From: Ornithinimicrobium sediminis
GTDB lineage: Bacteria > Actinomycetota > Actinomycetes > Actinomycetales > Dermatophilaceae
Reading direction: 5' to 3'
DNA: 64,000 bases
Assembly: GCF_021272345.1 (NCBI RefSeq)
Contig: NZ_JAJSDQ010000001.1
Location: forward strand, 248,001-312,000
The number at the start of each line of letters is the position of its first letter. Positions within the stretch are counted from its first letter, which is position 1. This document shows, in pieces, positions 751 to 22,681 of this stretch. The notes under the pieces were generated by a model that was given only the letters and a program-made list of their open reading frames with translations, was not told where the DNA came from and did no database searches. A program made the translations under genes and the position numbers.

Positions 751-1122
751 GACGACTCCTTGCTCTAGGAAGAACTGCTGACACCTCCTAAAGCGGACGA
801 AGACGCCCCAGGGACTCACCCGACCACCCGGTCACCGCTCGGACTGGCTGAGCCGACCACGACCCGCGCACGCTCACCGACCCTGAGCTGAGCACCGCCC
901 GTACAGACTCACCGACCCTGGACCTGACCGAAACCGCCAGGCTCATGTGCCACACACCTCTGGCATTCCCGGACCCCTCCCCAGAACCGCACCACAAGAA
1001 CCCGTGCGTCCCCACCTCGCGCAGTGACCGGTCCCAGGGTCGAGATGTGGCCAGATCGCGACCAGAAAATTGTCCGGAAGTGAGTCCCTGAGTCTCGGAT
1101 CTCCGCTTTGGTAGGTATGGCG
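751..1122. other. Intergenic spacer with short direct and inverted repeats; candidate oriT/control region
   Basis: No convincing gene is present. The 13-mer CTCACCGACCCTG occurs at 873-885 and again at 908-920, 35 bases apart. Its core appears inverted as CAGGGTCG at 1035-1042. The spacer separates a divergent small gene from the relaxase start, which is where origins of transfer are often found. No nic consensus was recognised, so oriT is a position-based suggestion only. Confidence 0.3.
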
Positions 1123-4100
1123 ATGACGATCCACCGGCTGACGGCCGGGTCGGGGTATGACTACCTGACCCGGCAGGTCGCCCGGCAGGACGCCACCGAG
1201 GTCGGCCACAGCGGGCTGGGCGGCTACTACACCGCCAAGGGCGAGGCTGCCGGTGAGTGGGTCGGTGCCGGCATGGCTGGCCTCGAAGGTTTGGCCGCTG
1301 GCGAGGAGGTCACCGCCGAGCACATGACCCGCCTGTTCGGCACCGGGGAGCACCCGCTTGGAGACGGCTCCGGACTCACACTGGGCCGGCCCTTCCGGGT
1401 GTACGAGGGACGCGATGACGTCACCCCGTTCCGCATCGAGGTGGCGCGCCGGTTCGAGCAGCACAACAAGGCTCGCGGGCTGCCCCTGGACCATCCGATC
1501 TCCGTCGAGGAGCGCGCGAGCATCCGCACCCAGGTCGCCCTGGAGATGTTCCGCACCGAGCACGGACGCGACCCGTTCGACGAGCGGGAGCTGGCCGGGC
1601 TCATCGCCAAGCAGTCCCGGCCGCGGACCACCGCGGTCGCCGGGTTCGACCTGACCTTCTCACCCGTGAAGTCGGTCTCGACCCTGTGGGCGGTCGCCGA
1701 CCGTCCCCTGGCCCTGCAGATCGAGGCCGCCCACCAGGCTGCGGTCCGGGACGCCCTGGGCTACATCGAGAAGCACGCCCTGTTCACCCGCACCGGTAAG
1801 GACGGCGTGCAGCAGGTGGACGTGCGCGGCATGGTCGCCGCGGCGTTCACCCACCGTGACTCCCGGGCTGGGGACCCGGACCTGCACACGCACGTCGCGG
1901 TCGCCAACAAGGTCCAGACCGCCAGCGACGGACGGTGGCTGTCGATCGACAGCCGGCTGTTGCACAAGGCGACCGTCTCCGCCTCGGAGACCTACAACAC
2001 GGCCCTGGAGAAGCATCTGCGACCGCTGGGCCTCACCTTTGCCCCGAGGACCCCTGCCACGGGGCCAGAGTCACGTAAGCGGCCGGTGCGCGAGATCGTC
2101 GGTGTCGATGACCGGCTCAACCAGGCCTGGTCGACCCGGCGGGCCAGCATCCAAGCGCGGCGCAGCGAGCTGGCCCGCGCGTTCCAGGCCCAGCACGGCC
2201 GGCCGCCGACCCCGGTGGAGTCGATCCAGCTGGCGCAGCAGGCGACCCTGGAGACGCGCGACGCCAAGCACGAACCTCGCTCCGAGGCGCAGCAGCGCCA
2301 GACCTGGCGGGCTGAGGCGCTGGCCGTCCTCGGGGGCCAGGACGCGCTGTCCTCGATGGTGGACGCGGCCCTGTCCGGGGCCCGCACCCACGGGCTCGGT
2401 CAGAGCGTCGACGAGCAGTGGGTGGAGCGGACCGCAGCACGCGTGGTGGACACCGTGCAAACGTCCCGGTCTACCTGGCAGGTGTGGCATGTGCGCGCCG
2501 AGGCCCAACGTCGCGTCCGCGCCGCCGACGTCCCCCAAGACCGAGTCGAAGACCTGGTCGAGCAGCTCACGCAGGCGGCGCTGGCACGCAGCAAGGCCAT
2601 GACCCCGGCCAAGGCCGACACGATCACCGACCCGGAGCCGCTGCGCCGGGCCAACGGGGTCAGCGTCTACACCGTCGCCGGATCCGCCCTGTTCACCTCT
2701 ACCGCGGTCCTGGAGGCCGAGCAGCGGCTGGTCGCGGCTGCCGGCGTCACGGACGGACGGCGAGCGTGCGAGCAGGATGTGGACGTGGCCCTGCTGGAAC
2801 AGGTGGCCAACGAGGTGGCTCTCAACGCCGGCCAGGCGGCACTGGTCAAGGGCATGGCGACCTCCGGGGCGCGGGTGCAGCTGGCGATCGCCCCGGCCGG
2901 GTCGGGCAAGACGACGGCCATGCGGGCCTTGGCCCGGGCGTGGGAGTCCTCCGGCGGCACCGTTGTCGGGCTCGCCCCGTCCGCTGCGGCCGCCGCGGTC
3001 CTGCGAGAGAACGCAAACACCCACGCCGACACCCTCGCCAAGCTGGTCTGGCACCTGGAGCACGACCCCGACCACCTGCCACAGTGGGCCGCTGCCATCA
3101 ACGAGTCGACCCTGGTCGTGATCGACGAGGCCGGGATGGTCGACACCCTGTCCCTGGACAAGGCGGTGCAGTTCATCACCTCCCGGGGCGCGTCGGTGCG
3201 CCTGGTCGGGGACGACCAGCAGCTGGCGGCGGTCGGTGCTGGAGGGGTGCTGCGCGACATTCGCGCCAACCACGGGGCTCTGCACCTGACCGAGCTGATG
3301 CGCTTCTCCGGGGCCGCCGAGGGCGCGGCCTCGTTGGAGCTGCGCGACGGACGACCCTCCGCGCTGGGGTTCTACCTCGACGCCGGCCGGGTCCACGTCG
3401 GTGACCTGGCCACCATGACCGAAGAAGTCTTCGGTGCCTGGTCCGCCGACCGGGCCCGCGGCAAGGACGCGATCATGCTCGCCCCCACCCGGGAGCTCGT
3501 CGCCGAGCTCAACCAGCGTGCCCGCGACCACCGCCTTGACAGAGCACCCCGACCCGCCGACGAGGTCGCCCTCTCCGACGGCAACCACGCCTCCATCGGG
3601 GACGTGATCATCACCCGCCGCAACGACCGCCGCCTGCAGACGGCACCGACCGACTGGGTCAAGAACGGTGACCGGTGGACCGTGCTGGACACCGACGACG
3701 CCGGGGCCCTGGTCGTGCAGCACACCCGCACCGCCCGCAAGATCGCCCTGCCGGCCGACTACGTCGTCGCCAACGTCGAGCTCGGGTACGCCTCCACCGT
3801 GCACACCGCCCAAGGGGTGTCGGTCGACGTCACCCACGGCCTGGCCACCGGGGACGAGTCGCGCCAGCAGCTCTACACGATGATGACCCGCGGCCGGGAC
3901 GCCAACCACGTCTACCTGGAGGTCGTCGGCACCGGGGACGAGCACGACGCCACCAAGCCGCACACGGTCAGCCCGCGCACCGCCACCGACCTGCTCGAGG
4001 GTATCCTGGCCCGCGACAAGGCACCGGCCTCGGCCTCCACCCTGCTGCGCGAGGCCGACGACCCAGCCGTCCTGCTCGGTGAGTCCACCGCCCGGTACGT

Positions 4101-6849
4101 CGACGCGCTCTACACCGCCGCCGCCACCACGGTCGGCACCGAGGGACTCCAGGAGCTCAACGAGGCCGCCGAGCAGGTGGTTCCCGGCATGACGAACGCG
4201 GCGGCGTGGCCGACCCTGCGGGCGCACCTGACCCTCATCGCCGCCGGTGGACAGGACCCGGTGCAGGTGCTGACCGGTGCGGTCACGGCGCGGGAGGTCG
4301 ACACCGCCGCCGACCCCGCCGCTGTGCTCGACTGGCGCCTGGACGACACCGGGATGCGCAACACCGCCCCCGGTCCGCTGCCGTGGATCCCCGGCATCCC
4401 CACCACCCTGGCCAGTGACCCGACCTGGGGCCCCTACCTGGCCGCCCGCGCCCGCCGCGTCACCGACCTCGCCCAGGAGGTCGCCGAGCACGCGGTCACC
4501 GCGCCCGCCCCCGCGTGGGCGGCCCAGGGCACCGCCCGCCCCGCCGACGACGTGCTGGCAGCTGTCGCCGTGTGGCGGGCCGCCAACCAGGTCGACCCGA
4601 CTGACCTGCGACCCACCGGCCCGCAACAGGTCTCCACGGCAGCAGCCATCTACCAGCGCCAGCTGCGGTCCCAGATCCAGGGCCGCCGCTCCCTCGCCCT
4701 GGCCGAGTGGGGACCGCTGCTGGCCCAGGTCGCGCCGGGGTCGGTCAAGGACGCCTTCGCCCCGGTGCTGGCCGAACGGTTGGCCGCGGCGACCCGGGCC
4801 GGGATCGACGCCGCCACCCTGCTCCGGGACGCTGCCGGCACCCGGGCCCTGCCGGACGACCACGCCGCGGCAGCGCTCTGGTGGCGCGTCGCCGGACACC
4901 TGGCCCCGGCGGTGGACACCGCCACCGGTGCCGGCCAGCTCCTGTCGACCGCATGGGTGCCGACCCTGGCAGAGCGGCTCGGGGACGACCGGGCCCAGGC
5001 GATGCAGACCAGCACCTGGTGGCCGGCGCTGGTCACCACCGTCGACCACGCCCTGCAGCGCGGCTGGTCCCTGGACGACCTGGTGGCTACCGCCCCCGCC
5101 GCCGGGGCCGATGTCGACGACGCCGCGGCCATGACCTGGACCATCAGCACCCTCATGGACGACCCGACCCACCTGCATCAGGAAGTCGGTCCCCACGAGG
5201 AGGACCTCGAGCTGCGGGCGGCCGCCGTCGACCCGCACCCGGTCTCGGTGCAGGCCACCGATGAGGACTACCGCCAGTATCTCGACACCGTTACCGCTGC
5301 CCCCGCCAGCGGCCCCGCTGATCAGCATGATGACCTGGACGCGGCTCAGGTGGAGGCGGGCCTTGGCCTGGCCGCGCAGTACCGCGCGCTCATGGGACCG
5401 TTGGAGCCGACGGACGCCGACCTGGACCGGGCCTACGACCGCGCTGTGCAGGCGTGGGAGTCGCCGGTCCCGGTGCAGCGTCTAGCGCAGGTCAACGCGA
5501 TGGCCCTGGGCTACTACGAGCAGCAGCTGGCGACCGGTGGCTGGGTCCGCGACTACCTGACCGACCGGTTCGGCCAGGACGTCGCCGGCCACCCGCATGT
5601 CCGCCCCGGGTACGCCCCGCCCGGGTGGACCCGGCTGCTGGACCACCTGCGCGCCCAAGGCGTCACCGACACCGAGCTGCAGACCACCGGACTGGCCACC
5701 ACCACACGGGACGGCCGCCCCATCGACCGGTTCCGCGACCGGGCCGTCTTCCCCATCACCGACCACATCAGCGGGCAGGTGCTCGGGTTCGTCGGCCGCC
5801 GCAACCCCGCCATCGATTCCGACGCCCCGCACGCGGGACCGAAGTACCTCAACACCCCCACCACTCCCCTGTTCGCCAAGGGCAACCAGCTCTACGGCGC
5901 CGACACCGGCCTACTCAAGGCCGGGGCCACCCCCGTGCTCGTCGAAGGCCCGGTGGACGCCCACGCCATCACCCTCGCCACCCGTGGCACGTACGTCGGC
6001 CTCGCTCCGTTGGGCACCGCACTCACCCCCGAGCAGGCGAGACAGCTGGCCCAGCTCGGAAGCCCCGTCATCTTCGCCACCGACGCCGACACCGCCGGCC
6101 GCCTGGCGGCCGAACGGGCTCACTGGTTGCTCGCCCAGCACAACGTCCCCACCTTCGTCGCGTCCTTGCCCGAGGGCACCGACCCCGCAGACCTGCTCCA
6201 CGACCAGGGCGCCGACGCCGTGACCAGCGCGCTCCTGGGCGCTTCCCCCCTGTCCGAGGTCCTGCTCGAAGAGCGGCTGACCAACTTGCCGGCCGACCAG
6301 GCACTCCACCCGGCCGTCCAAGTTCTGGCGACCGCCACCCCCGCCACGTGGGACCGCGCCTGCACCGAGATCGCCGACCGGCTCGGCACCGACAGCGGCA
6401 CCACCCGCCGGGCCCTGCACCAGGCCGTCCGCGCCTGGCACGACGACCCCCACACCGTGGCCACGCACCAGCTGGAGAACCTACGCGAGGTCCGCGCCCG
6501 GCTCGAGACGGCCGCCCGGCAGACCCCCGAGCAGCGTTGGGCTCCCATCGCCGACCGGCTCGACCCCCGTCTCACGGCCCAACAGGACTGGCCAGCCCTG
6601 GCCGCCACCATGCAGCACCTGCACGACGAGGGCCACGACGTCGAGACCCTCGCCCGGGCCAGCGTCGCCACTGAGCCACTGGTGACCTCCCGCCCAGCAC
6701 AGGCGCTGCGCTACCGCCTCGCCGTCACTGCACCGACGGCTGCGCAGAGCACCCCGCACGTCCAGACGGGCAGCAGGCCCCTGCCACGCGACGAAGACCA
6801 CCGCATCGTCGCTCTTGGGCAGGACCGTTCGGGAGGCGTCCCGCGGTGA
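1123..6849 (+). CDS. traA: TraA/TrwC-type (MobF) relaxase-helicase fused to a DnaG-like primase
   Basis: This 1908-residue conjugative relaxase is expected to nick oriT, stay attached to the 5-prime end and unwind the transferred strand. The start ATG (MTIHRLTAGSG) follows GGTAGG; TTG 1108 and ATG 1117 are alternatives. Visible elements in order: N-terminal tyrosines Y12 and Y14; metal-binding HTH at about 255-257 in DPDLHTHVAV; Walker A APAGSGKTT near 590-598; Walker B VIDEAG near 667; a RecD-like STVHTAQG motif near 890. A DnaG-like catalytic region then begins around 1470, with Toprim residues LVEGP (E near 1608) and DAD near 1654-1656. No zinc-ribbon primase domain precedes it. The primase fusion would let the protein prime the complementary strand in the recipient. 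It lies just upstream of a small coupled gene. Confidence 0.93.
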   Translation: MTIHRLTAGSGYDYLTRQVARQDATEVGHSGLGGYYTAKGEAAGEWVGAGMAGLEGLAAGEEVTAEHMTRLFGTGEHPLGDGSGLTLGRPFRVYEGRDDVTPFRIEVARRFEQHNKARGLPLDHPISVEERASIRTQVALEMFRTEHGRDPFDERELAGLIAKQSRPRTTAVAGFDLTFSPVKSVSTLWAVADRPLALQIEAAHQAAVRDALGYIEKHALFTRTGKDGVQQVDVRGMVAAAFTHRDSRAGDPDLHTHVAVANKVQTASDGRWLSIDSRLLHKATVSASETYNTALEKHLRPLGLTFAPRTPATGPESRKRPVREIVGVDDRLNQAWSTRRASIQARRSELARAFQAQHGRPPTPVESIQLAQQATLETRDAKHEPRSEAQQRQTWRAEALAVLGGQDALSSMVDAALSGARTHGLGQSVDEQWVERTAARVVDTVQTSRSTWQVWHVRAEAQRRVRAADVPQDRVEDLVEQLTQAALARSKAMTPAKADTITDPEPLRRANGVSVYTVAGSALFTSTAVLEAEQRLVAAAGVTDGRRACEQDVDVALLEQVANEVALNAGQAALVKGMATSGARVQLAIAPAGSGKTTAMRALARAWESSGGTVVGLAPSAAAAAVLRENANTHADTLAKLVWHLEHDPDHLPQWAAAINESTLVVIDEAGMVDTLSLDKAVQFITSRGASVRLVGDDQQLAAVGAGGVLRDIRANHGALHLTELMRFSGAAEGAASLELRDGRPSALGFYLDAGRVHVGDLATMTEEVFGAWSADRARGKDAIMLAPTRELVAELNQRARDHRLDRAPRPADEVALSDGNHASIGDVIITRRNDRRLQTAPTDWVKNGDRWTVLDTDDAGALVVQHTRTARKIALPADYVVANVELGYASTVHTAQGVSVDVTHGLATGDESRQQLYTMMTRGRDANHVYLEVVGTGDEHDATKPHTVSPRTATDLLEGILARDKAPASASTLLREADDPAVLLGESTARYVDALYTAAATTVGTEGLQELNEAAEQVVPGMTNAAAWPTLRAHLTLIAAGGQDPVQVLTGAVTAREVDTAADPAAVLDWRLDDTGMRNTAPGPLPWIPGIPTTLASDPTWGPYLAARARRVTDLAQEVAEHAVTAPAPAWAAQGTARPADDVLAAVAVWRAANQVDPTDLRPTGPQQVSTAAAIYQRQLRSQIQGRRSLALAEWGPLLAQVAPGSVKDAFAPVLAERLAAATRAGIDAATLLRDAAGTRALPDDHAAAALWWRVAGHLAPAVDTATGAGQLLSTAWVPTLAERLGDDRAQAMQTSTWWPALVTTVDHALQRGWSLDDLVATAPAAGADVDDAAAMTWTISTLMDDPTHLHQEVGPHEEDLELRAAAVDPHPVSVQATDEDYRQYLDTVTAAPASGPADQHDDLDAAQVEAGLGLAAQYRALMGPLEPTDADLDRAYDRAVQAWESPVPVQRLAQVNAMALGYYEQQLATGGWVRDYLTDRFGQDVAGHPHVRPGYAPPGWTRLLDHLRAQGVTDTELQTTGLATTTRDGRPIDRFRDRAVFPITDHISGQVLGFVGRRNPAIDSDAPHAGPKYLNTPTTPLFAKGNQLYGADTGLLKAGATPVLVEGPVDAHAITLATRGTYVGLAPLGTALTPEQARQLAQLGSPVIFATDADTAGRLAAERAHWLLAQHNVPTFVASLPEGTDPADLLHDQGADAVTSALLGASPLSEVLLEERLTNLPADQALHPAVQVLATATPATWDRACTEIADRLGTDSGTTRRALHQAVRAWHDDPHTVATHQLENLREVRARLETAARQTPEQRWAPIADRLDPRLTAQQDWPALAATMQHLHDEGHDVETLARASVATEPLVTSRPAQALRYRLAVTAPTAAQSTPHVQTGSRPLPRDEDHRIVALGQDRSGGVPR

Positions 6850-7770: not shown

Positions 7771-7905
7771 GTGGACATCGTGGATTCCCACGTGCGGACG
7801 ATGCTACAGGAAGACTGCGAACCCGTGCCTCAGCCTCCGGCCACGACCCGATATCCCGACGGGCACTTCAACGGCGTGCCCTCCACCACAGGGACTGCAT
7901 GGTGA
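7771..7905 (+). CDS. Possible 44-residue upstream ORF coupled to the hydrolase gene
   Basis: A GTG at 7771 preceded by GAGAGGGGG opens a 44-codon frame. It ends in TGA at 7903-7905, overlapping the start of the next gene (ATGGTGA). The peptide (VDIVDSHVRTMLQEDCEPV, then Pro/Thr-rich) matches no family I know. The good ribosome-binding site and the start-stop overlap suggest translational coupling of the hydrolase gene, which has only a weak site of its own. It could instead be fortuitous. Confidence 0.4.
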   Translation: MDIVDSHVRTMLQEDCEPVPQPPATTRYPDGHFNGVPSTTGTAW

Positions 7906-9233
7906 AGCGATGCAGGCAGGACCAATTCACCGAGCAGGAGTTTGATGCGGACCGCTTCAATCTGCACGCCTTTCGCGAAACTCGCAGAGAAGTTGTGGTC
8001 GTTTTCGTGCACGGATTTGGCGGTCACGGCTACAAGACGTGGGCAAACGTCCCGCACGACGTCTTCGCCAGAGGGTACGATGTCGGAATCTTCGACTATC
8101 GCAGTGGCCCGCGGCGACTCATGAGCGGCGCGCGTGCAGCCTTCGACCTATGGGTGCAACAACTGCGGCGGCATTTAGAGGACCTCGAGAAGGACTACAA
8201 ACATATCTTCCTTGTCGGCCACAGCCTCGGAGGCAAAGTAGTTGAGGCGGTCGCCAAAGAGATATTGACCGCTAGAGCGCATTCCCGCAAGCCATCGTCG
8301 CTTGCAGCGCTCGTCCTCGTCGCCTCACCTCGCGCGGGCACCACTCTTGCCCCCCGTATACTGACCGCGTTGATCGGGGAGTTATCTCTTCTCACGGCCT
8401 TCTCTCCTTATGATGCGGCCACTGAGCGGTATTATAAGGAGAACGTTGAACGGGCCAACATCGCCGAGTCGCCCGGACTCGTCGTACTTCCGGCCTACGC
8501 CGTCGTGGGGATAGACGACCGCATTGTTCAAGCCTTCAGCGCTTTGGTGGGAATCCCGGTGAGACAGAGATTGCCATTGGCTGGCGGACATGGAGAAATA
8601 GTCAAGCCCCAAGAGGGGGACGAGGCCCTCTTGCGAATACTCGACGAGGACGTCATCCACGCCCGACTGGAAGTGTTGCAACAGGCCGACCGCGAGTCGA
8701 TGCATTCAGAAAACCGAACCGTTATCATAAATCAACCCTCGCGAAGCGCATTAATCACCCGCTTTTTGACGGACTCCTCTGGCATGGACTGGGAGCATGT
8801 ATACAACGAGGTTAGGGCGGGCGCGACCAGTGGGGGGCTGCTTATGCAAGATCATAGGGAGGATCCCATCGCGCCGGTAGACGCCGTCATTGCCATTCAT
8901 GCGGCGGATCTGGTCGCTGGAATGACCGCGGGAGTCAGAAAGAGTTTGGCGGTAGCACGATCAGAGTGCGACAAGTGGCCGACATTAACGGTCTCCCTAA
9001 ACTCAGTCGGCGAAACTCATGCCTTGGCGACAGAGGTCCTGAACGAGTACATCGCAGGTGAGGATATTACTGGAGCATGGTACGTATCGGGAGCACCCAA
9101 CCTATCCGCATTGCGTGATAATCTTGCTCGATTTCTGGAATCCCTGCGCAACCGGGACCCGCGCCGAAACACCCTGCCAATGCGCCCGCGTCAAGCGACG
9201 GACGCCATCGACACAATGCGTATCGAGGAATAG
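7899..9233 (+). CDS. Alpha/beta hydrolase with an unrecognised C-terminal domain
   Basis: This 444-residue protein begins at ATG 7899 (GTG 7902 is equally possible). Residues 1 to about 260 form an alpha/beta-hydrolase fold: the oxyanion strand VFVHGFGGHG near 37, the nucleophile elbow VGHSLGG with Ser109, an acidic residue in VGIDD near 206-207, and His231 in AGGHGE. The triad looks complete, so a serine esterase, lipase or thioesterase activity is likely. The C-terminal 150 residues (from about 290, including VDAVIAIHAADLVAGM and WYVSGAPNLSALRDN) form a separate alpha/beta-looking domain I cannot name. Base composition is clearly lower in GC than the flanks, and TTA codons occur at 8175 and 8751, suggesting transfer. 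It is 8 bases upstream of the helical-repeat gene, so the two probably act together. Confidence 0.85.
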   Translation: MVKRCRQDQFTEQEFDADRFNLHAFRETRREVVVVFVHGFGGHGYKTWANVPHDVFARGYDVGIFDYRSGPRRLMSGARAAFDLWVQQLRRHLEDLEKDYKHIFLVGHSLGGKVVEAVAKEILTARAHSRKPSSLAALVLVASPRAGTTLAPRILTALIGELSLLTAFSPYDAATERYYKENVERANIAESPGLVVLPAYAVVGIDDRIVQAFSALVGIPVRQRLPLAGGHGEIVKPQEGDEALLRILDEDVIHARLEVLQQADRESMHSENRTVIINQPSRSALITRFLTDSSGMDWEHVYNEVRAGATSGGLLMQDHREDPIAPVDAVIAIHAADLVAGMTAGVRKSLAVARSECDKWPTLTVSLNSVGETHALATEVLNEYIAGEDITGAWYVSGAPNLSALRDNLARFLESLRNRDPRRNTLPMRPRQATDAIDTMRIEE

Positions 9234-9241
9234 GAGATGCC

Positions 9242-11620
9242 ATGGACCTCGCTTGGCTAGCCGCCGTTCTACAACCGCGTGACGTTGCGCCGCACCCGAA
9301 CTTCCCCGATCAGAAGTTCGACAGCCAGCCTCACGCGCGTCTTGCTAGCGCAATTCTGGGCAGCCCCTTTGCTATGTCAAGTGGCTTAGACGTAACTGAG
9401 GACACTGATGCCTTCATCGCTGCTGTCGTTCGCTCTCACCATCCGGAATCCATCGCCCCAGCAACAGCGGAATTGTCCCACACGTTGTCGGTGCACCCGC
9501 CTTCCGATCCTGCTAGGGCAGCCGCATTGGCGCTAGCGACGTGTGCGGCAGCGGCTGAACTGGACGACTACGACACGTGTTTTCGCGTACTCAAGGAACA
9601 GCTTGCACGCACGTCAATGGCAGACACCGCCGATACGGCGCTTCTTCGATCGGCCATACTACAGCAGATGGCCCTTCGAAAGCGTGATGCTGGCATGGCG
9701 TACCTCCCCGAGGTGGAGGAGGCCACGAGAACGCTCGGCCGCTTCAACCCCGATCAATGTCAAAGCTTCCCGACTAGCCCAGGGGTGTCGTGGTCTTCAG
9801 TAAAAACATTGAGTGACATGTGGTATTCGCTGCAGGACGCGGCCGCAAGCTTGGTACCCTCCACCGAGTCTGCTTTCCGCCAAAAGGCTAGTATCCCATC
9901 GAGGCTTGAGCGGGTACGTGCTCCGCTACCCACTATCCGTCAACGCACCGACGGGGCCCGCGCGTGGACGTATTCAAAATATGTGGCAAACGTTTACCGT
10001 GGCATGTATGGCGAGGCACCGCGGCACCTCTTCGGCGCTCCGGAAGAACCAGACTTGTTCCGAGTGGTGCTACAACTGGAACTCCTCGGCCACGGTGACG
10101 TCTATATCGCAAGACGCGAGTTGGCGCTCCTGCGGCTGGTTCAACGGAACGACGAAGATTCGGTAGCCGACGCGATCCGGTTGCTGCGCCAAGGGGCTGG
10201 CAAGGACGAGCTGGAGTTGGCGCTACGCCATCTGAAAAGATCTGGCCCGCTCGCTTCTTTAGGGCGGGACGCAAGGCAGGTGCTTGGCCGGCGCACAAAA
10301 TCGAATCTGCTCCGTACCACCGAATTTCAAGTGCTGAGGTCTGCTGCGGAGTTGCTTGCGCCCGCCGAGGCACAGCTGGGCCTGGATGCCATCCGTAAGG
10401 CCTTGGGGAAGGGCACGCCCGGTGACCTCCCTGGTAATTGGCAGCTGCCGATACTTCGCCGGGAAGCAGCATGGAAGGCTGCTGCGGCGCTTGGGAAAGT
10501 AGCAGGCGCAAGCGACTCTGCTGCGTCGTTGCTACTCGCAGAGCTCCTAGCGGTTGAGGAAGACGTAGAACTTGCCGATGCGGGAATGCGAAGGGCCGCC
10601 GCCGAACTAGACTGGGAGGAGGTTTCCGCGGCACGGGCACAGGAGTGGCTCGTTGCCTTGGATGGCCGCGAACACGAGTTTCCTGAGACCATGGCGTATG
10701 TTCGTGACGCCTTGGGAATGACGGCCCCTGAGCTTAATGATCCAGGAATCGTAGAGATCGCTCGAGCGCTTAATTCTGTGATCCGCGGCACGAGCCACGA
10801 TTTATCTTTTGCTGCGCACGCTGCGGCGGTCCTGGCGTCCACGCTTGAGAAGAAAAGGCAAGAAGCCGCCCGTGGAATGTTCACGGTCGGATCCATTGAA
10901 GTGGCGGACGTGGCCGCCGGTTTGGTGGTGTTCGCTAGCGTTCCTGAATTGTGGCCAACGTTGATTGACTTCCTCTTCGATCCCCGTATTCCTGTCCGCG
11001 AAAAGCAAACAGCGCTTGATCGGTTAGCTAGCGCGGACGTCGTTTTGCCGGAGAGCGTCAAAGAACGGGTAAAGGCAGCGGGGACTGGGACCATACTGGC
11101 GCCACGACTCGATTGGGACGACGTTGGAATATCCCCATTCCCTTCAGGTCTACGGTTCTTGGCGGCGCACGAATTGCTTGATCGCTCGACGGTCTACGAC
11201 GCAATCGCACGACTCGCCGGCCAGCGAAGTGCTGATGCGCGGCGGGAGGCGGCTTACACGATTGCGCTTCTGGCGGCACGGCAAAGCGATCCGTACCTCA
11301 CGGCTTTCGCGCTCCCCCTCTCCAGGGACGAGATTGTAGAGGTGCGTGCTCACGCTGGGCGCGCGTTAACGGTACTCGCTTCGAGAGAGACGCCTCTCAC
11401 CTCCGTGGCGATGGAACGAGTGGTTGAACTCCTTGGCGAAGATGGAGTGATGGCGCCGCTGCTGGTTCTCCGAGCGCTCGCTTATGAACCGTCGACGATC
11501 CCCGCCAGGCTCTACGGATTGATTGATGAACTTGCCCGGAAACATCCATCTCAGTCCGTGCGGACGGAGGCACAGCGGTTAATAGGCAAGAATGGGCCGG
11601 TCCCGCCCGTTCAACCGTAG
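9242..11620 (+). CDS. Large helical-repeat (HEAT-like) protein paired with the hydrolase
   Basis: This is a 792-residue protein. ATG 9242 has AGGAG five bases upstream, overlapping the stop region of the hydrolase gene, so the two form a tight operon. The sequence is almost wholly alpha-helical, rich in Ala/Leu with repeating helix pairs. The last 250 residues (RREAAYTIALLAARQSD, EVRAHAGRALTVLAS) look like HEAT/ARM repeats. No enzymatic motif, P-loop or membrane segment is visible. TTA codons (for example 9386, 10802 and 11579) and lower GC match the hydrolase gene and set the pair apart from neighbours. HEAT proteins usually act as binding scaffolds, so a sensor or partner role for the hydrolase is an inference. 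Confidence 0.85.
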   Translation: MDLAWLAAVLQPRDVAPHPNFPDQKFDSQPHARLASAILGSPFAMSSGLDVTEDTDAFIAAVVRSHHPESIAPATAELSHTLSVHPPSDPARAAALALATCAAAAELDDYDTCFRVLKEQLARTSMADTADTALLRSAILQQMALRKRDAGMAYLPEVEEATRTLGRFNPDQCQSFPTSPGVSWSSVKTLSDMWYSLQDAAASLVPSTESAFRQKASIPSRLERVRAPLPTIRQRTDGARAWTYSKYVANVYRGMYGEAPRHLFGAPEEPDLFRVVLQLELLGHGDVYIARRELALLRLVQRNDEDSVADAIRLLRQGAGKDELELALRHLKRSGPLASLGRDARQVLGRRTKSNLLRTTEFQVLRSAAELLAPAEAQLGLDAIRKALGKGTPGDLPGNWQLPILRREAAWKAAAALGKVAGASDSAASLLLAELLAVEEDVELADAGMRRAAAELDWEEVSAARAQEWLVALDGREHEFPETMAYVRDALGMTAPELNDPGIVEIARALNSVIRGTSHDLSFAAHAAAVLASTLEKKRQEAARGMFTVGSIEVADVAAGLVVFASVPELWPTLIDFLFDPRIPVREKQTALDRLASADVVLPESVKERVKAAGTGTILAPRLDWDDVGISPFPSGLRFLAAHELLDRSTVYDAIARLAGQRSADARREAAYTIALLAARQSDPYLTAFALPLSRDEIVEVRAHAGRALTVLASRETPLTSVAMERVVELLGEDGVMAPLLVLRALAYEPSTIPARLYGLIDELARKHPSQSVRTEAQRLIGKNGPVPPVQP

Positions 11621-12667: not shown

Positions 12668-14098
12668 ATGGGCGAGGATGCCATCGTGGCGGTTGCGCGT
12701 GACCTCGTGGTCTCGCCCGCGGACAGTCCCCTGCGGGTGGCGATCGTCGGCGCGGGTCCGGCCGGGGTCTATGCGGCCGAGGCGCTGGCCGAGCAGGACG
12801 CCGTCCCTGTCGCAGTCGACATCATCGACCGGTTGCCGACGCCCTTCGGGCTGGTGCGGTACGGCATCGCCCCCGACCACCTGAAGATGAGGGGTTTGCG
12901 GGCCACGCTACAACGCACCCTGGATCACCCGCGGGTACGGTTCTTCGGCAACGTCGAGGTCGGCGTCGACCTCCCCCTGGCACTGCTGCGCGCTCATGTG
13001 GACGCGGTGATCTACACATACGGCGCCGCCGATGCCGGACGGCTCGGTATCGACGGGGAGGAGCTGCCCGGGAGCCTGACCGCCCTCGACCTCGTCTCTT
13101 GGTACTGCGGACATCCTGACGCCGACCGCGCCACCGTGGAGGAGGCACTGTCCCATGCACGTTCGGTGGTGGTCATCGGCGTGGGCAACGTCGCCCTCGA
13201 CGTCGCTCGGGTGCTCGCCCGGGCACCCGAAGAACTCCAGCTCACAGAGATGCCGCAGCATGTGCTTGATGCGCTCGCAGACGCCCCGGTCGAGCAGGTC
13301 ACCGTCATCGGACGACGGGGTCCGGCCCTGGCCAGCTTCACCACCCAGGAGCTGCGCGAACTAGGCCGGCTGCAGTCCGCGGTCGTGCTGGTGGACCCGC
13401 ACGACCTGGAACCGTTGGGGGCGGCGGAGGAGCAGGCCGCCGCCGAGTCGGCCGTGGCCCGTAACCTGGCAGCACTGCGCGGCTGGGTCGAGCATGAGCC
13501 CTCCCCGGGAGCCGTCCGGCTGAGCCTGCGTTTCCGCTGGCGGCCGGTACGCCTCCTCGGACCGGACCGGGTGCGTGCGCTGGAGCTGGAGCGAACGGCC
13601 GCGGGCGCTGACGGGCGGGCGGTGGACACCGGCGAGCTTGAGGTGCTGCCGGCCGACCTGGTGGTCCGGTCGGTCGGTTACCGCGGAACCTCCCTGCCGG
13701 GTCTGCCAGTCGACGAGCGCACGCAGACGGTGACCCACACCGCAGGGCGGGTGCTGCGCGACGGCCGGCCCTCGACCGGCGAGTACGTGGCGGGATGGAT
13801 CAAACGGGGCCCGAGCGGGGTGGTGGGCACCAACAAGCACGACGCGAAAGAGACCGTCGCGAGCCTCCTTGAAGATGTCGCCGCCGGAGCACTCGCACCC
13901 TGCCGGCAGCCGGAGGACCTGCTCACTGTGCTGACGAGGCAGGGGCTGCACCCGGTCCTGCTCGAGAACTGGGGAGCCATCGACGCAGCCGAGGAAGCCC
14001 TCGGCGCCACCCACGGGCGCGACCGGACGACGCTGCACGACCGCAACACACTCCTCGCCGCGGCCCGGCTTGCGGCGGCCAACAGGGAAGATGGTTGA
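12668..14098 (+). CDS. fprA: Ferredoxin/adrenodoxin-type NADP reductase
   Basis: This 476-residue flavoprotein transfers electrons between NADPH and ferredoxin, typically feeding P450s or iron-sulfur enzymes. It shows the FAD dinucleotide-binding motif VAIVGAGPAGVYAAE near 23-37, the family signature PTPFGLVRYGIAPDH, the NADP-binding VIGVGNVALDVARVL near 165, and GRRGPA further on. The C-terminal WIKRGPSGVVGTNKHDA signature is typical of FprA and mitochondrial adrenodoxin reductase. Length matches the family. The ATG at 12668 has no strong ribosome-binding site and GTG 12686 is an alternative. It is monocistronic; no ferredoxin or P450 gene is adjacent. Confidence 0.95.
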   Translation: MGEDAIVAVARDLVVSPADSPLRVAIVGAGPAGVYAAEALAEQDAVPVAVDIIDRLPTPFGLVRYGIAPDHLKMRGLRATLQRTLDHPRVRFFGNVEVGVDLPLALLRAHVDAVIYTYGAADAGRLGIDGEELPGSLTALDLVSWYCGHPDADRATVEEALSHARSVVVIGVGNVALDVARVLARAPEELQLTEMPQHVLDALADAPVEQVTVIGRRGPALASFTTQELRELGRLQSAVVLVDPHDLEPLGAAEEQAAAESAVARNLAALRGWVEHEPSPGAVRLSLRFRWRPVRLLGPDRVRALELERTAAGADGRAVDTGELEVLPADLVVRSVGYRGTSLPGLPVDERTQTVTHTAGRVLRDGRPSTGEYVAGWIKRGPSGVVGTNKHDAKETVASLLEDVAAGALAPCRQPEDLLTVLTRQGLHPVLLENWGAIDAAEEALGATHGRDRTTLHDRNTLLAAARLAAANREDG

Positions 14099-14257
14099 CC
14101 TGACCCGACCACGGGGAATGTCCGACCTCCGGTGCCGCTGGACCTTCCTGCCGAGGCCCCGCGGCCGCGGGGCTGGGGACCGGGTGTGGCGTCCTAGTGG
14201 GGTTCCCTTGCCCCACCACCGTCAGCACGCTCATGCCGCTGTGCGCAAGAATGTGGC

Positions 14258-14542
14258 ATGGCTCGAGTGGTCCGGTTCATGTTCGACTACGGGCACGTGT
14301 GGCCGCTGTGGGAGGACGGAACCGACAAGTACGCCATGGAACCGAGCGACTACGGATTGTCACCAGAGCTCACGGAGCGACTCCGGTCCTGTTACGAGTT
14401 CTGGGAGACCCACCACATCCCTGAGCGCGGATGGGATGCGCCGGAGAGCCGTCACCGATGGCACGCTGAGACGGACCAAGCCGTTGCCATCTTGCGGTGG
14501 GAGGTCTCCGACTTCGCAGACGTCAGAGACGAACGGGACTGA
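14258..14542 (+). CDS. Conserved small hypothetical protein
   Basis: This 94-residue acidic soluble protein is rich in Trp (FMFDYGHVWPLWEDGTD, SCYEFWETHHIPERGW). Coding is supported by strong third-position GC and coherent composition. No domain is recognised. The same style of short aromatic-rich protein is frequent as a stand-alone gene in actinobacteria. It is followed by the P-loop kinase gene with 63 bases between. Confidence 0.7.
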   Translation: MARVVRFMFDYGHVWPLWEDGTDKYAMEPSDYGLSPELTERLRSCYEFWETHHIPERGWDAPESRHRWHAETDQAVAILRWEVSDFADVRDERD

Positions 14543-19124: not shown

Positions 19125-19922
19125 TCATTCGTCTACGGCTTCGTAATCGGCGACATCCCAGTAGAGAGTGTGGCCGGAGGGGTAGCGCGGTCGCTTGGTC
19201 CTCGGGTTGAACTCGTGCGCCCACTTCTCCGTGATCTCTGGCCGTACAGCCGCCTCCACCCGGCGACGGTCCAACTCGCCCAGCTTCTTCATCAACCGAT
19301 GACGAACAGGCTCGATGATCAGGTCGAGTCGACGCTCCATGACATCGATCAATTCCAGGAAGTCGCGGACAACGCGGTTCGGCAGCGGAACAAGCACCGT
19401 GGGTCCTGTCACGTCTCGGACTCTCAGGGTGTCCGTTTCGAGCACGCCGACCGCATACGTGACGGCGAGTTCGGACTGCGAGTGAGCAACCGTCGCGTTC
19501 CTGTACGTCTTGACTAGATCGTGCACGCGGACGAAGCCATCGGGAACGGCCACGTGGTCGGTCAGCCGGCCGCGAACGTTCGAGTGCAAGACCGCGCGAC
19601 AGTAGGCGACCACAGCAAGCCCCACCAGATGCCGACTGGCATCAGCGAGATCCGATTCCTCCTCAAAGCCCCGGATCGCCAGGTGGAGGGCGTGGCGGGC
19701 CTCGGCAAGGTCTGATCCGTAGCTCGAGAGCTCGATGAAGAGTCGGCTGTCTGCAGAGTCACCAACCGGGACTATCAGGAATGGCTGCCCGTCCTCAGTG
19801 TGCTCCACCCAGCAAGTATCGCTTCCCTCGTTCCGCCACGCCTGACGCTCGGGGGCGAAGGCCAACGTCAGGCCGCCGACATTGCCCTCCGCGGCAGCAA
19901 ACGCAGCGCCGGAGCCAGGCAT
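19125..19922 (-). CDS. Hypothetical protein, 265 residues
   Basis: The first 30 residues are weakly supported and the true start may be internal. The middle contains a helical segment (EARHALHLAIRGFEEESD, VGLAVVAYCRAVLHS) with RVHDLVKTYRNATVAHSQSE. This resembles HEPN-like or AbiV-like helices with an R-x4-H motif (RNATVAH). The C-terminus is charged. It lies back-to-back with the AbiV-like gene. A HEPN RNase is a speculative reading based on the RNATVAH segment only. Confidence 0.65.
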   Translation of the reverse strand: MPGSGAAFAAAEGNVGGLTLAFAPERQAWRNEGSDTCWVEHTEDGQPFLIVPVGDSADSRLFIELSSYGSDLAEARHALHLAIRGFEEESDLADASRHLVGLAVVAYCRAVLHSNVRGRLTDHVAVPDGFVRVHDLVKTYRNATVAHSQSELAVTYAVGVLETDTLRVRDVTGPTVLVPLPNRVVRDFLELIDVMERRLDLIIEPVRHRLMKKLGELDRRRVEAAVRPEITEKWAHEFNPRTKRPRYPSGHTLYWDVADYEAVDE

Positions 19923-20117
19923 GCGACTGATCGACCTGACCGTCGACGGCTGGACGCCAGGCTCCGAACCCGAGCGACTGCCGGGTCCCCGAAACGACCG
20001 CTACTGCCGCACTGGACTCAGTGTGGCCGCGCACTAGCTAGGGGCCTGATCCTCACAAAGCTGCTGACGCTGGGCCCCGGGACCCCGACGGTCGGTGGTC
20101 CGCGTCAGACTGATCGC

Positions 20118-20960
20118 ATGGCCCGCAAGCAGCATCTCCCCGCAGACCTTTCGCCCGCCCAGGTCATCGCGCTGCAGGACGCCCTCCTCGCGAACGCCGA
20201 CCGGCTTCTGCAGGCGGCGCTGGCGATGCTTGAAAGGGACAATGTGCCGCTCGCGCGGTCGCTGGCCATCCTGGGCATGGAGGAGTCGGGGAAGGCGATC
20301 GCCCTCCATGAGCGGCGGGTCCGCATGGCGGATGCACCCGAGGGTGAATCATTCGTGGATCAGGGCCTCAGGGAACTGTGGGGGCAGCACGTCCTCAAGC
20401 TCGAGGCGGTGCACGCCTTCCTAGTGAGCGAGGAGTATTGGTTCGACGCCGAGATGCCGGACCGCGAGGAGAACGCCCGGGTACTGGGCACCATTCAGGA
20501 GTGGAAACGCGAGCACAACGTGCTCAAGCAGCGCGGGTTCTACGTTGACGTGACGGCGGCGGGCGAGCCGGTCACGCCGCAGGAGACGGCCGATGCGGAG
20601 GCCGTCCGTGCCGTTATCGGACACGTGCACCAGATCGGCTGGCAGCTGCGCCTGGGTGAGCACATCGAGGGCAAGAGTCAGCTGCAGCGGCAGCAGGACG
20701 TGCCCCCGGCGTCCGAGGAAGAGATCGAGAGCACGCGCCGCCACATGCGCAGCGTCGACCCGGAGATCGTCGAGCGCATCGTCGAGTCGATGCGTGAAGG
20801 GACGAGGGGCGAGAAGCTGAACAACTCCGGGTACGCGTTCGTTCTGCCGGAACATCCATTCGAGACTGTTGGTCGGCCGGGGTACGAAGCGCAAGACCGC
20901 GAGCTGTGGGCGCTGATGAATGAACCCTCTGAATCGGGTGACGCGAAGCCGGAGGGCTGA
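20118..20960 (+). CDS. AbiV-family (abortive infection) protein
   Basis: This is a 280-residue protein starting at ATG 20118; the frame extends upstream but with non-coding composition. The N-terminal 80 residues carry the AbiV pattern: LQDALLANADRLLQAALAML, then LARSLAILGMEESGKAIALH with the conserved EE-x-GK. AbiV of lactococci blocks phage by binding a phage protein that modulates translation. This domain family is widespread and most members are untested. The remaining 200 residues are helical and charged, longer than the minimal domain. It sits between a HEPN-like hypothetical and a DUF6884/GIY-YIG gene. Confidence 0.75.
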   Translation: MARKQHLPADLSPAQVIALQDALLANADRLLQAALAMLERDNVPLARSLAILGMEESGKAIALHERRVRMADAPEGESFVDQGLRELWGQHVLKLEAVHAFLVSEEYWFDAEMPDREENARVLGTIQEWKREHNVLKQRGFYVDVTAAGEPVTPQETADAEAVRAVIGHVHQIGWQLRLGEHIEGKSQLQRQQDVPPASEEEIESTRRHMRSVDPEIVERIVESMREGTRGEKLNNSGYAFVLPEHPFETVGRPGYEAQDRELWALMNEPSESGDAKPEG

Positions 20961-21205: not shown

Positions 21206-22501
21206 TCATTGTGCGTATTGCTTTCGCAGCGCCGAGAGCCGCTGTCGGAGCGGAGTCCGGGCAACCTTCGCGAGGTTCAACGGTGGATCCAGCTCGCTGA
21301 GGATGTTGGTCTCAAGGTCATCGAGCGTGTGCGCATTCGCCACCGGGATGAGCACGACGCGAAGGTGGGCATGCATCCAGAGCGTGAGTCTTGCTTCGTC
21401 GATGGTCGGTTGTCCATTCGCGTGGGCCAGGATGGAGCCGAGGCTTCGACGCAGAGTGGAGAACTCGTTCTTCTTGCCGAGGTGCATGGTGGTTATGCGT
21501 CCCCAGAGGGTGTTCGATGAGGTCGCGCCGCTCTTGCGCGTTGCTCCGGCGAGTCCGGCGTAGATGAGGCCCGGAGCGATCTCGTGTTCGAGGCCCGCGG
21601 ATAGGTCGCTTGCCCCGGCGTCGTCGACCCACCAGCTGTACATGCCAGGAGATCGCAGGCCATTGCCAGCCGTCTTCAGGACGTCATCGAGCGCCCTCGC
21701 CCGTGAGTGGTCAGAGAGCTGCGCGACGATCTCAGCCGCGTCGCCGGTGGACGCGGTTGGCCGGTGGAGGTACCAGGAGAGGCGCTGTCCAATTGACAAC
21801 CCTTTGAGCTGGTCGATGATGACGGCACCCTTTGGACTCACAGCGGCGTCGACGGCCTTGATGTACGTCGAACCAGCGTGGATGTCGAAGATTCGGCCCC
21901 GGAGCGGGCCGAGGGCCTGCTCCAGCTGTCGCGCCACCTTGCGGCCCCAGTCCGCCTGATAGGCGGGGCCCCTCGTGGCGAGGTAGCAGTCGTACGGCTC
22001 CAGCCATTCGTCGGGAGCAACCAGGCCGTGCTCGGCGGAGAGGATGTACCAGGGTTTGCCCGTGCTCTCAGCGTAGACGCGCATCTTCGCGAAGTAGTCC
22101 GAGGTGTAGAGGTCCTGGGCCGGTGCCCCGCTCGCGCGTTTGCTCTTGACGCAGCCGACCAGCACTACGTCGGCTACCGCCGGTGCCCGAACCCGATCTG
22201 GCGAGGTAGTCCCCTTCGGGGAAGGCCGAGTTTTACCAGCCGGGACAGCGACCACGTCGTTGCCCTTTCCGATGGTGAAGCCCAGCTTTGCGAGCAAGCG
22301 TTGGGCGCTCTGCGACTGGAATTCACTTTTGGCCAGGCCGGTGGCCAGCGACAGCACTTGCTTGACGGGCCATTGGATGCCGTCGATGTCGACCCAGTAC
22401 TGGCGGATCTGGTCAGGATGATGCTTCGCGACGCGCGTTCGCACGTCGGCGTCCGACAACTCGAACTGCTGACCCGCGAGGGTGAACGAGATCGCGGCCA
22501 C
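21206..22501 (-). CDS. DUF6884 domain fused to a GIY-YIG nuclease domain
   Basis: This 431-residue protein has a GTG start with GAGAGGAGG five bases upstream. Three parts are visible. Residues 1-80 are a small N-terminal module (FTLAGQQFELSDADVRTRV, VKQVLSLATGLAKSEFQ). Residues about 108-230 are a DUF6884 domain (VVLVGCVKSKRASG, DLYTSDYFAKMRVYAE, WYILSAEHGLVAPDEW). Residues about 305-425 are a GIY-YIG-type domain (GLIYAGLAGATRKSG, LWGRITTMHLGKKNEF, SELDPPLNLAKV). DUF6884 has unknown chemistry; GIY-YIG domains cut DNA. The combination suggests a modification-linked nuclease. Next to it is a second, broken GIY-YIG gene. Confidence 0.8.
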   Translation of the reverse strand: MAAISFTLAGQQFELSDADVRTRVAKHHPDQIRQYWVDIDGIQWPVKQVLSLATGLAKSEFQSQSAQRLLAKLGFTIGKGNDVVAVPAGKTRPSPKGTTSPDRVRAPAVADVVLVGCVKSKRASGAPAQDLYTSDYFAKMRVYAESTGKPWYILSAEHGLVAPDEWLEPYDCYLATRGPAYQADWGRKVARQLEQALGPLRGRIFDIHAGSTYIKAVDAAVSPKGAVIIDQLKGLSIGQRLSWYLHRPTASTGDAAEIVAQLSDHSRARALDDVLKTAGNGLRSPGMYSWWVDDAGASDLSAGLEHEIAPGLIYAGLAGATRKSGATSSNTLWGRITTMHLGKKNEFSTLRRSLGSILAHANGQPTIDEARLTLWMHAHLRVVLIPVANAHTLDDLETNILSELDPPLNLAKVARTPLRQRLSALRKQYAQ

Positions 22502-22681
22502 GAGCGCCTCCTCTCTTTCGGAGCTGCGCACCCATTCCACTCTAGGCCAGGTCAGCGCGGCGCCTGCTGATCCCGGCGTTGCGCGCTCGAGGGCTGGAGA
22601 GGTCGCATCTGTCCGATGCACGGTGGTTCTGGCATTCATCTTCAGAGGTTGTCAGCGGCCGGCATGCGGTCGGCGAAGTCG

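Follow-up and report, generated by a model that had tools for sequence, protein, structure and literature searches.

Could a hydrolase gene and the long helical-repeat gene behind it, lodged close to a relaxase, be parts of one bacterial conflict system, and if so, of what kind? The question is raised by a stretch of 64,000 nucleotides from Ornithinimicrobium sediminis (assembly GCF_021272345.1, contig NZ_JAJSDQ010000001.1, positions 248,001 to 312,000), hereafter the window, whose two genes we call gene A and gene B. A sequence-only reading had proposed a two-gene phage-defence system. This proposal stands insofar as the pair looks acquired, recurs in another genome (G833) and includes a gene B that no library names; it needs amending in that the hydrolase is only one of at least three effectors, a membrane protein being the commoner, and that defence is a probable rather than an observed role. 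A small connector-like domain, termed S, or an S-like part precedes the HEAT gene in ten loci, with sequence homology of S in five of them, and a sister family has DUF4365 fused to the HEAT protein. We therefore consider the pair, with a probability of roughly 0.6, to be the hydrolase version of a modular conflict system, most likely anti-phage or anti-mobile-element, that combines a constant HEAT core, a small connector and an exchangeable effector.

The hydrolase-S fusion and the solenoid gene

The features of the pair are as follows.

7899-9233, forward strand: gene A, 444 amino acids (aa), alpha/beta hydrolase fused to the S domain (putative effector plus connector)
7986-8678, forward strand: hydrolase domain of gene A, with approximate limits taken from Pfam matches and alignment
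8223-8225, forward strand: Ser109 codon, nucleophile in G-H-S-L-G (sequence and alignment)
8514-8519, forward strand: Asp206/207 codons (sequence, frame from ATG 7899)
8517-8519, forward strand: Asp207 codon, probable catalytic acid (alignment with the G833 fusion)
8589-8591, forward strand: His231 codon, catalytic base (alignment with the G833 fusion)
8742-9185, forward strand: S (connector-like) domain, joined to the hydrolase in one protein (hhalign); a separate gene in loci L021, L040 and L043
9232-9236, forward strand: AGGAG ahead of gene B that overlaps the gene A stop codon; probable translational coupling
9242-11620, forward strand: gene B, encoding an alpha-solenoid of HEAT type (792 aa); constant core and presumed sensor or scaffold
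9275-9304, forward strand: N-terminal signature P-x-x-V-A-P-H-P-N-F of gene B (sequence comparison)

We placed the start of gene A at ATG 7899, with AGGGA 4 bases upstream, within a frame that is itself open from TTG 7668; residue numbers used here are valid with this start, and the one proposed earlier, at 7771, lies out of frame with it. The Pfam models Hydrolase_4, Abhydrolase_6, Abhydrolase_1 and Lipase_3 all scored above their curated cut-offs for gene A, which identifies the product, at the level of sequence, as an alpha/beta hydrolase of the lipase/esterase type, with predicted catalytic activity. Among solved structures, monoglyceride lipases are nearest in sequence to its hydrolase part, with a match limited to the nucleophile stretch (E 1e-4). 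The catalytic triad read earlier as Ser109, Asp206-207 and His231 is correctly numbered from ATG 7899. The G-x-S-x-G elbow is present, and Ser109, Asp207 and His231 are identical in both hydrolase-S fusions, that of the window and that of G833 (locus L041; BLASTP E 4e-19). Alignment and BLASTP further revealed that the G833 homologue keeps Asp207 but not Asp206, which makes Asp207 the likely catalytic acid. A search with gene A alone hit 14 of 198 genomes of the order, among them the source genome; the hits in the other 13 (E 2e-6 to 7e-4) centred on the hydrolase part.

Gene B begins 8 bases after gene A and encodes 792 residues, both as previously stated. It gave no match up to E 10 in Pfam (the HEAT model included), NCBIfam or PADLOC, and a single one in PHROGs (E 0.055). 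An AlphaFold model built from six alignment rows, with a predicted local distance difference test score (pLDDT) of 73.5, contains 39 helices and not one strand of three or more residues. Searching with this model in Foldseek retrieved CAND1 and Kap121 (E 5e-5) and PP2A-A (E 3e-4), a profile of ten gene B relatives matched PP2A-A at E 2.6e-5, and VIA-align returned Z-scores of up to 14.9, near the chance background of helical repeats. The earlier label 'HEAT-like' thus fits by predicted fold, though with no Pfam match, and the modelled protein is an all-helical HEAT-type alpha-solenoid. Its signature, as P-x-x-[VI]-A-P-H-P-N, is also present in the DUF4365-fused relatives; L043 (APDAAY) deviates from it, and L042 (AAHPNF) partly so.

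Putative connector and effectors, and the DUF4365-HEAT sister family

Ten loci carry a full-length direct relative of gene B, the window included. The others are L021 (an actinobacterial metagenome-assembled genome), L022 (Pseudarthrobacter), L023 (Microbacterium), L024 (Naasia), L025 (Nonomuraea) and L040 to L043 (genomes G1001, G833, G901 and G064, respectively). A small protein or domain lies directly upstream of the HEAT gene in all ten. Seven of them (L021-L024, L040, L042 and L043) have a separate S or S-like gene of 171-190 aa that follows a gene whose 210-290 aa product has two or three hydrophobic segments; in L025 an S-like part is fused behind a hydrophobic segment, and in the window and L041 S is fused behind the hydrolase. 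The stop of S and the start of the HEAT gene overlap by 4 bases in L021, L022, L023 and L025.

To a profile of L021, L043 and L040, hhalign aligned the window S alone with a probability of 88.6 (E 2.6e-6, 145 columns), the L041 S alone with 96.4 (E 1.3e-9, 130 columns) and both together with 95 (E 3.5e-8). Because the window and L041 parts match this profile, S is, as judged by homology, one domain in these five loci. The C-terminal domain of about 150 residues that had been noted as unassigned can now be described as a recurring, connector-like domain. In L022-L025 and L042, S was named from its position, its length, likeness by eye and weak collinear matches; those of L022-L024, 24-34% identical to that of L023, make up a second type. 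Profiles of S found no credible match in the PDB, and a TIR-like interpretation of the order of its strands and helices was considered and dropped, with no result to support it. Across nine genomes with a HEAT locus, the profile of the window type gave one match each in six, all at the HEAT locus and all source rows of the profile, with no further copy at E 0.1; the second-type profile found two source HEAT loci among the nine, plus four weak matches elsewhere (E 0.005-0.04).

Had the two genes not occurred together elsewhere, a joint system would be hard to argue; the hydrolase-S fusion followed by a HEAT gene recurs at the independent locus in G833. The tree placed the window HEAT protein among the membrane-type loci (87/92, not starred). 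In none of 200 bootstrap trees did the HEAT proteins of the window and L041 fall together, which suggests that the hydrolase was recruited more than once, in two recruitments; a single clade had a p value of 0.076 in the approximately unbiased test and is not rejected, and the branches are long. Locus L026, a row of alignment A5, was left out of alignments A8 and A13 and of the trees, neither A5 nor A13 includes the distant L019/L050 (764 aa), and L039 (E 8e-4), a 643-aa frame lacking the signature, was dropped.

Two observations concern membrane-type loci. Copies of a sulfate-transporter-like gene, some partial and some complete and recognised by eye (5859-6641, 10556-11485 and 12874-14376), flank the membrane/S/HEAT cassette of L023, which looks as if it had integrated with duplication. 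The membrane protein of the L022 locus (L003:4292-4999) weakly matches PADLOC PycTM, a Pycsar membrane effector (E 0.0032).

A sister family joins a different effector to the same core. Loci L044-L049, L062 and L063 encode one protein of 925-969 aa, and in the two that were tested Pfam placed DUF4365 at the N-terminus (E 1.5e-19 in L020, which is the L049 locus; E 1.1e-23 in L048). The rest is homologous to the gene B family over its full length (hhalign probability 99.9, E 2.6e-37, 728 columns, six rows) and opens with P-R-L-[VI]-A-P-H-P-N. The motif D...Q-x-K is kept in 6/6 of L044-L049, L048 passes the Pfam cut-offs of HEAT_2 and HEAT, and the DUF4365 part of L020 also matches a PADLOC Argonaute-associated REase (E 6e-11). 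L054/L055 (L062/L063) were classed as DUF4365-type by signature and motif and are not in alignment A14. Eight plasmid records carry DUF4365-HEAT proteins (Rhodococcus 5, Streptomyces 2, Glutamicibacter 1), annotated just as 'DUF4365 domain-containing protein'; in three of the eight an IS3 transposase lies inside the match, with a 'hypothetical protein' piece, and copy L077, annotated as DUF4365, did not match the motif pattern. According to PMC10810196, DUF4365 is a nuclease effector in short-Argonaute systems.

Collectively, sequence comparison points to at least three effectors accompanying the HEAT family, with the membrane protein as the commoner partner (seven of ten loci, plus one membrane-segment fusion). 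By analogy, core, coupling part and exchangeable effectors are arranged as in immune systems that use separate parts for sensing and killing. With a membrane protein and a nuclease as its alternatives, the hydrolase is better explained as an effector that kills or arrests than as a metabolic enzyme. Gene B would then be the constant sensor or scaffold, its long HEAT solenoid binding a trigger, and S would couple the effector to gene B and relay the sensing. The hydrolase half, a serine esterase/lipase-like effector, would be kept inactive or unassembled as long as gene B is not engaged, and once activated might attack a host ester, likeliest a membrane lipid, with growth stop or death of the infected cell as the outcome. 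A membrane protein takes this place in the sister loci, as does a DUF4365 PD-(D/E)XK-like nuclease, fused directly onto the HEAT protein, in the sister family. Such a system is most likely an undescribed, abortive-infection-like defence family, a view that its sporadic occurrence and defence-like neighbours also favour. We lean slightly towards the wider proposal that it is an undescribed Actinomycetota immune family in which a HEAT solenoid with P-x-x-[VI]-[AS]-P-H-P-N serves as common sensor for three unrelated killing principles: a lipase-like hydrolase and a membrane protein, both through a small dedicated connector, and a DUF4365 nuclease by direct fusion. If the defence role is true, a HEAT solenoid lacking any NTPase or nucleotide-cyclase match would be a new sensor type among modular bacterial immune systems. 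The combinations of one core with three effectors (hydrolase, membrane protein, nuclease) form a natural series, and the trigger and the killing step should therefore be separable by part swapping.

Foreign composition and sporadic distribution

The pair differs in composition from its surroundings. TTA codons number 10 of 1236 in the pair versus 4 of 12,349 in 28 other open reading frames (ORFs) of the window, a comparison set picked by hand from the ORF list, some of which may not be real genes. The five TTA codons listed earlier (8175, 8751, 9386, 10802 and 11579) are all real and represent half of the total. The lower guanine-plus-cytosine (GC) content also claimed is borne out, at 0.577 for gene A and 0.601 for gene B versus 0.667 for the window, and GC at third codon positions is 0.65 and 0.61, respectively, versus 0.66-0.91 across the same 28 ORFs. 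TTA codons and GC thus make the pair look acquired, as had been proposed.

Relatives of gene B are scattered. Searches with gene B or profiles found them in 3/297 genomes of the order and 4/396 of the phylum, in further sets in 8/396 of the order and 8/394 of the class, in 4/159 of the family of G833 and, with the HEAT profile, in 2/31 of the genus Ornithinimicrobium; these genome sets overlap, and the counts include DUF4365-fused relatives and the match taken as false (L039). The second Ornithinimicrobium match is L026 (Ornithinimicrobium sp. CNJ-824), where the HEAT gene is in pieces. A scan of genome contigs for HEAT relatives gave six loci, of which two repeat L003 and L018; none of 42 candidates matched when the gene B protein alone was compared with genome contigs. 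Plasmid searches with gene A, gene B and the L021 HEAT protein found no match, and that with the L041 HEAT protein found one weak DUF4365-HEAT match. Homologues kept mostly as single housekeeping genes would have spoken against a system; the distribution is sporadic instead, and in the ten full-length loci the HEAT gene never stands alone.

Alternative roles, known systems and neighbouring genes

Several results weigh against the modular conflict system proposed here. None of 5027 PADLOC models matched gene A or gene B up to E 10. Single-protein scans, which reach only close relatives, found no relative in viral contigs, and in phages no HEAT relative, with one short match to the DUF4365 part only. 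The TM-scores of the Foldseek HEAT matches of gene B are low (0.14-0.28), and the S model, with a pLDDT of 55, gave nothing above background in Foldseek and VIA-align. Only two hydrolase-type loci were found, the window and L041. The S of L042 is collinear but weak in its match (probability 13.8, E 0.002), that of L025 matches L022-L024 weakly (probability 7.6, E 0.0046), and three tests for a sequence link between the two S types were not significant. S is not detectable beside the distant 764-aa HEAT relative of L050 (G432; same as L019) and is absent from L026 with its broken HEAT gene. As to the surroundings described below, the scanned neighbours were chosen for their defence-like look with no control set and represent context rather than measured enrichment, PADLOC did not match the NERD or AbiV neighbours, and the flanks of L022, L024, L040, L041 and L043, read by eye alone, displayed no defence-like gene.

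Other roles were weighed against the same data. In a toxin-antitoxin or addiction module, the hydrolase-S (or membrane) protein would be toxic alone and neutralised by the HEAT protein, thereby stabilising mobile elements. Tight gene coupling, effector exchange, the relaxase neighbour and the plasmid copies of the DUF4365 branch would all suit this role, but a core of ~800 aa is out of line with usual antitoxins, as generally known, and the DUF4365 branch holds core and effector in a single protein; we consider it unlikely. Somewhat less likely still is a non-immune cellular role in envelope or lipid maintenance or stress, with a lipase-like enzyme or a membrane protein on a scaffold. Both effectors could indeed work at the membrane, and the monoglyceride lipase matches (E 1e-4, confined to the nucleophile stretch) point the same way, whereas sporadic presence, foreign codon use and a nuclease version in the sister family argue otherwise. 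The pair might also serve the mobile element itself, in entry exclusion or plasmid competition instead of anti-phage defence, as the start of gene A ~1 kb beyond the TrwC relaxase frame and the DUF4365-HEAT genes of the eight plasmid records would allow. However, L022, L024 and L040 lie among chromosomal-looking genes (by eye), with no conjugation genes seen in the stretch read, and we hold this role to be the least probable of those considered.

The modular conflict system belongs to no listed defence system and is unnamed by the libraries used, although it shares traits with several. Short-Argonaute systems (PMC10810196) have exchangeable effectors (DUF4365-APAZ, SMEK-APAZ, TIR- or SIR2-APAZ and a membrane effector) and likewise join a constant sensor and a connector to exchangeable effectors, a DUF4365 nuclease and a membrane effector included. 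Unlike in those systems, gene B matches neither PIWI nor APAZ, a HEAT solenoid forms the core and the effector of the window is a hydrolase; in the HEAT relatives tested, the DUF4365 and HEAT models alone passed Pfam cut-offs, with no PIWI or APAZ among them. System 4 (EACC1 plus caspase) of Kaur et al. 2020 (PMC7159879) resembles it in an Actinobacteria-rich two-gene layout and in a constant membrane-linked part with exchangeable effectors, but neither gene B nor the tested relatives have a caspase or cyclase Pfam match. The tested S and membrane proteins had no Pfam match above cut-off, and the S model is too poor for comparison with the EACC1 fold. In contrast to an EAD-type connector, no further S copies fused to other effectors were found in the nine genomes searched. 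PADLOC HEAT_CxxC_PD-DEXK and OloA (Olokun) are likewise helical-repeat proteins among candidate defence proteins; they matched weakly only the distant L019 (E 0.0013 and 0.032), and the window pair not at all. HEAT core, S and effectors came together in no title or abstract opening listed, in a literature search with poor coverage of subscription papers.

The neighbourhood of the pair comprises the following features, where L061 denotes the 20 kb to the left of the window.

Window 1108-6849, left of the pair: TrwC relaxase, helicase and DnaG-type primase/Toprim domains in a single 1913-aa frame
L061:15902-19717, 8-12 kb left of the pair: C5 DNA methylase, GIY-YIG nuclease, DUF4928 and Vsr in one run
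L061:5252-6379 (genome C7 233252-234379), ~21 kb left of the pair: prokaryotic STING domain protein (33.8 bits, cut-off 27.1)
Window 19800-20960, right of the pair: AbiV (HEPN) protein (111 bits, cut-off 27.1)
Window 21206-22639, right of the pair: DUF6884 plus GIY-YIG protein (PADLOC PDC-M57A, E 3.8e-26)

The relaxase reported earlier as a neighbour is thus present, with helicase and primase domains. The run in L061 is a restriction-modification-like cluster, and the STING-domain protein possibly belongs to a cyclic-oligonucleotide-based anti-phage signalling system (CBASS). A NERD protein also lies to the right of the pair. The flanks scanned with the libraries exclude those of L021, L022, L024, L040, L041, L043, L046, L047, L062 and L063. 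HsdR is found beside L023, HEPN after L042, together with an integrase recognised by eye, and a Schlafen AlbA_2 protein directly after the Nonomuraea HEAT gene (L025:10475-11659), which is perhaps another effector. In the DUF4365 branch, PDC-S06 lies beside L044, an AriA/PtuA-like ATPase beside L045 and DUF4062 beside L049, and AbiEi/AbiEii adjoin the plasmid copy L076. An uncharacterised protein abuts two DUF4365-HEAT genes of this branch (L048:10097-11347 and L076:3873-5036), the two copies being 69% identical to each other, and is a possible partner of the DUF4365-fused proteins.

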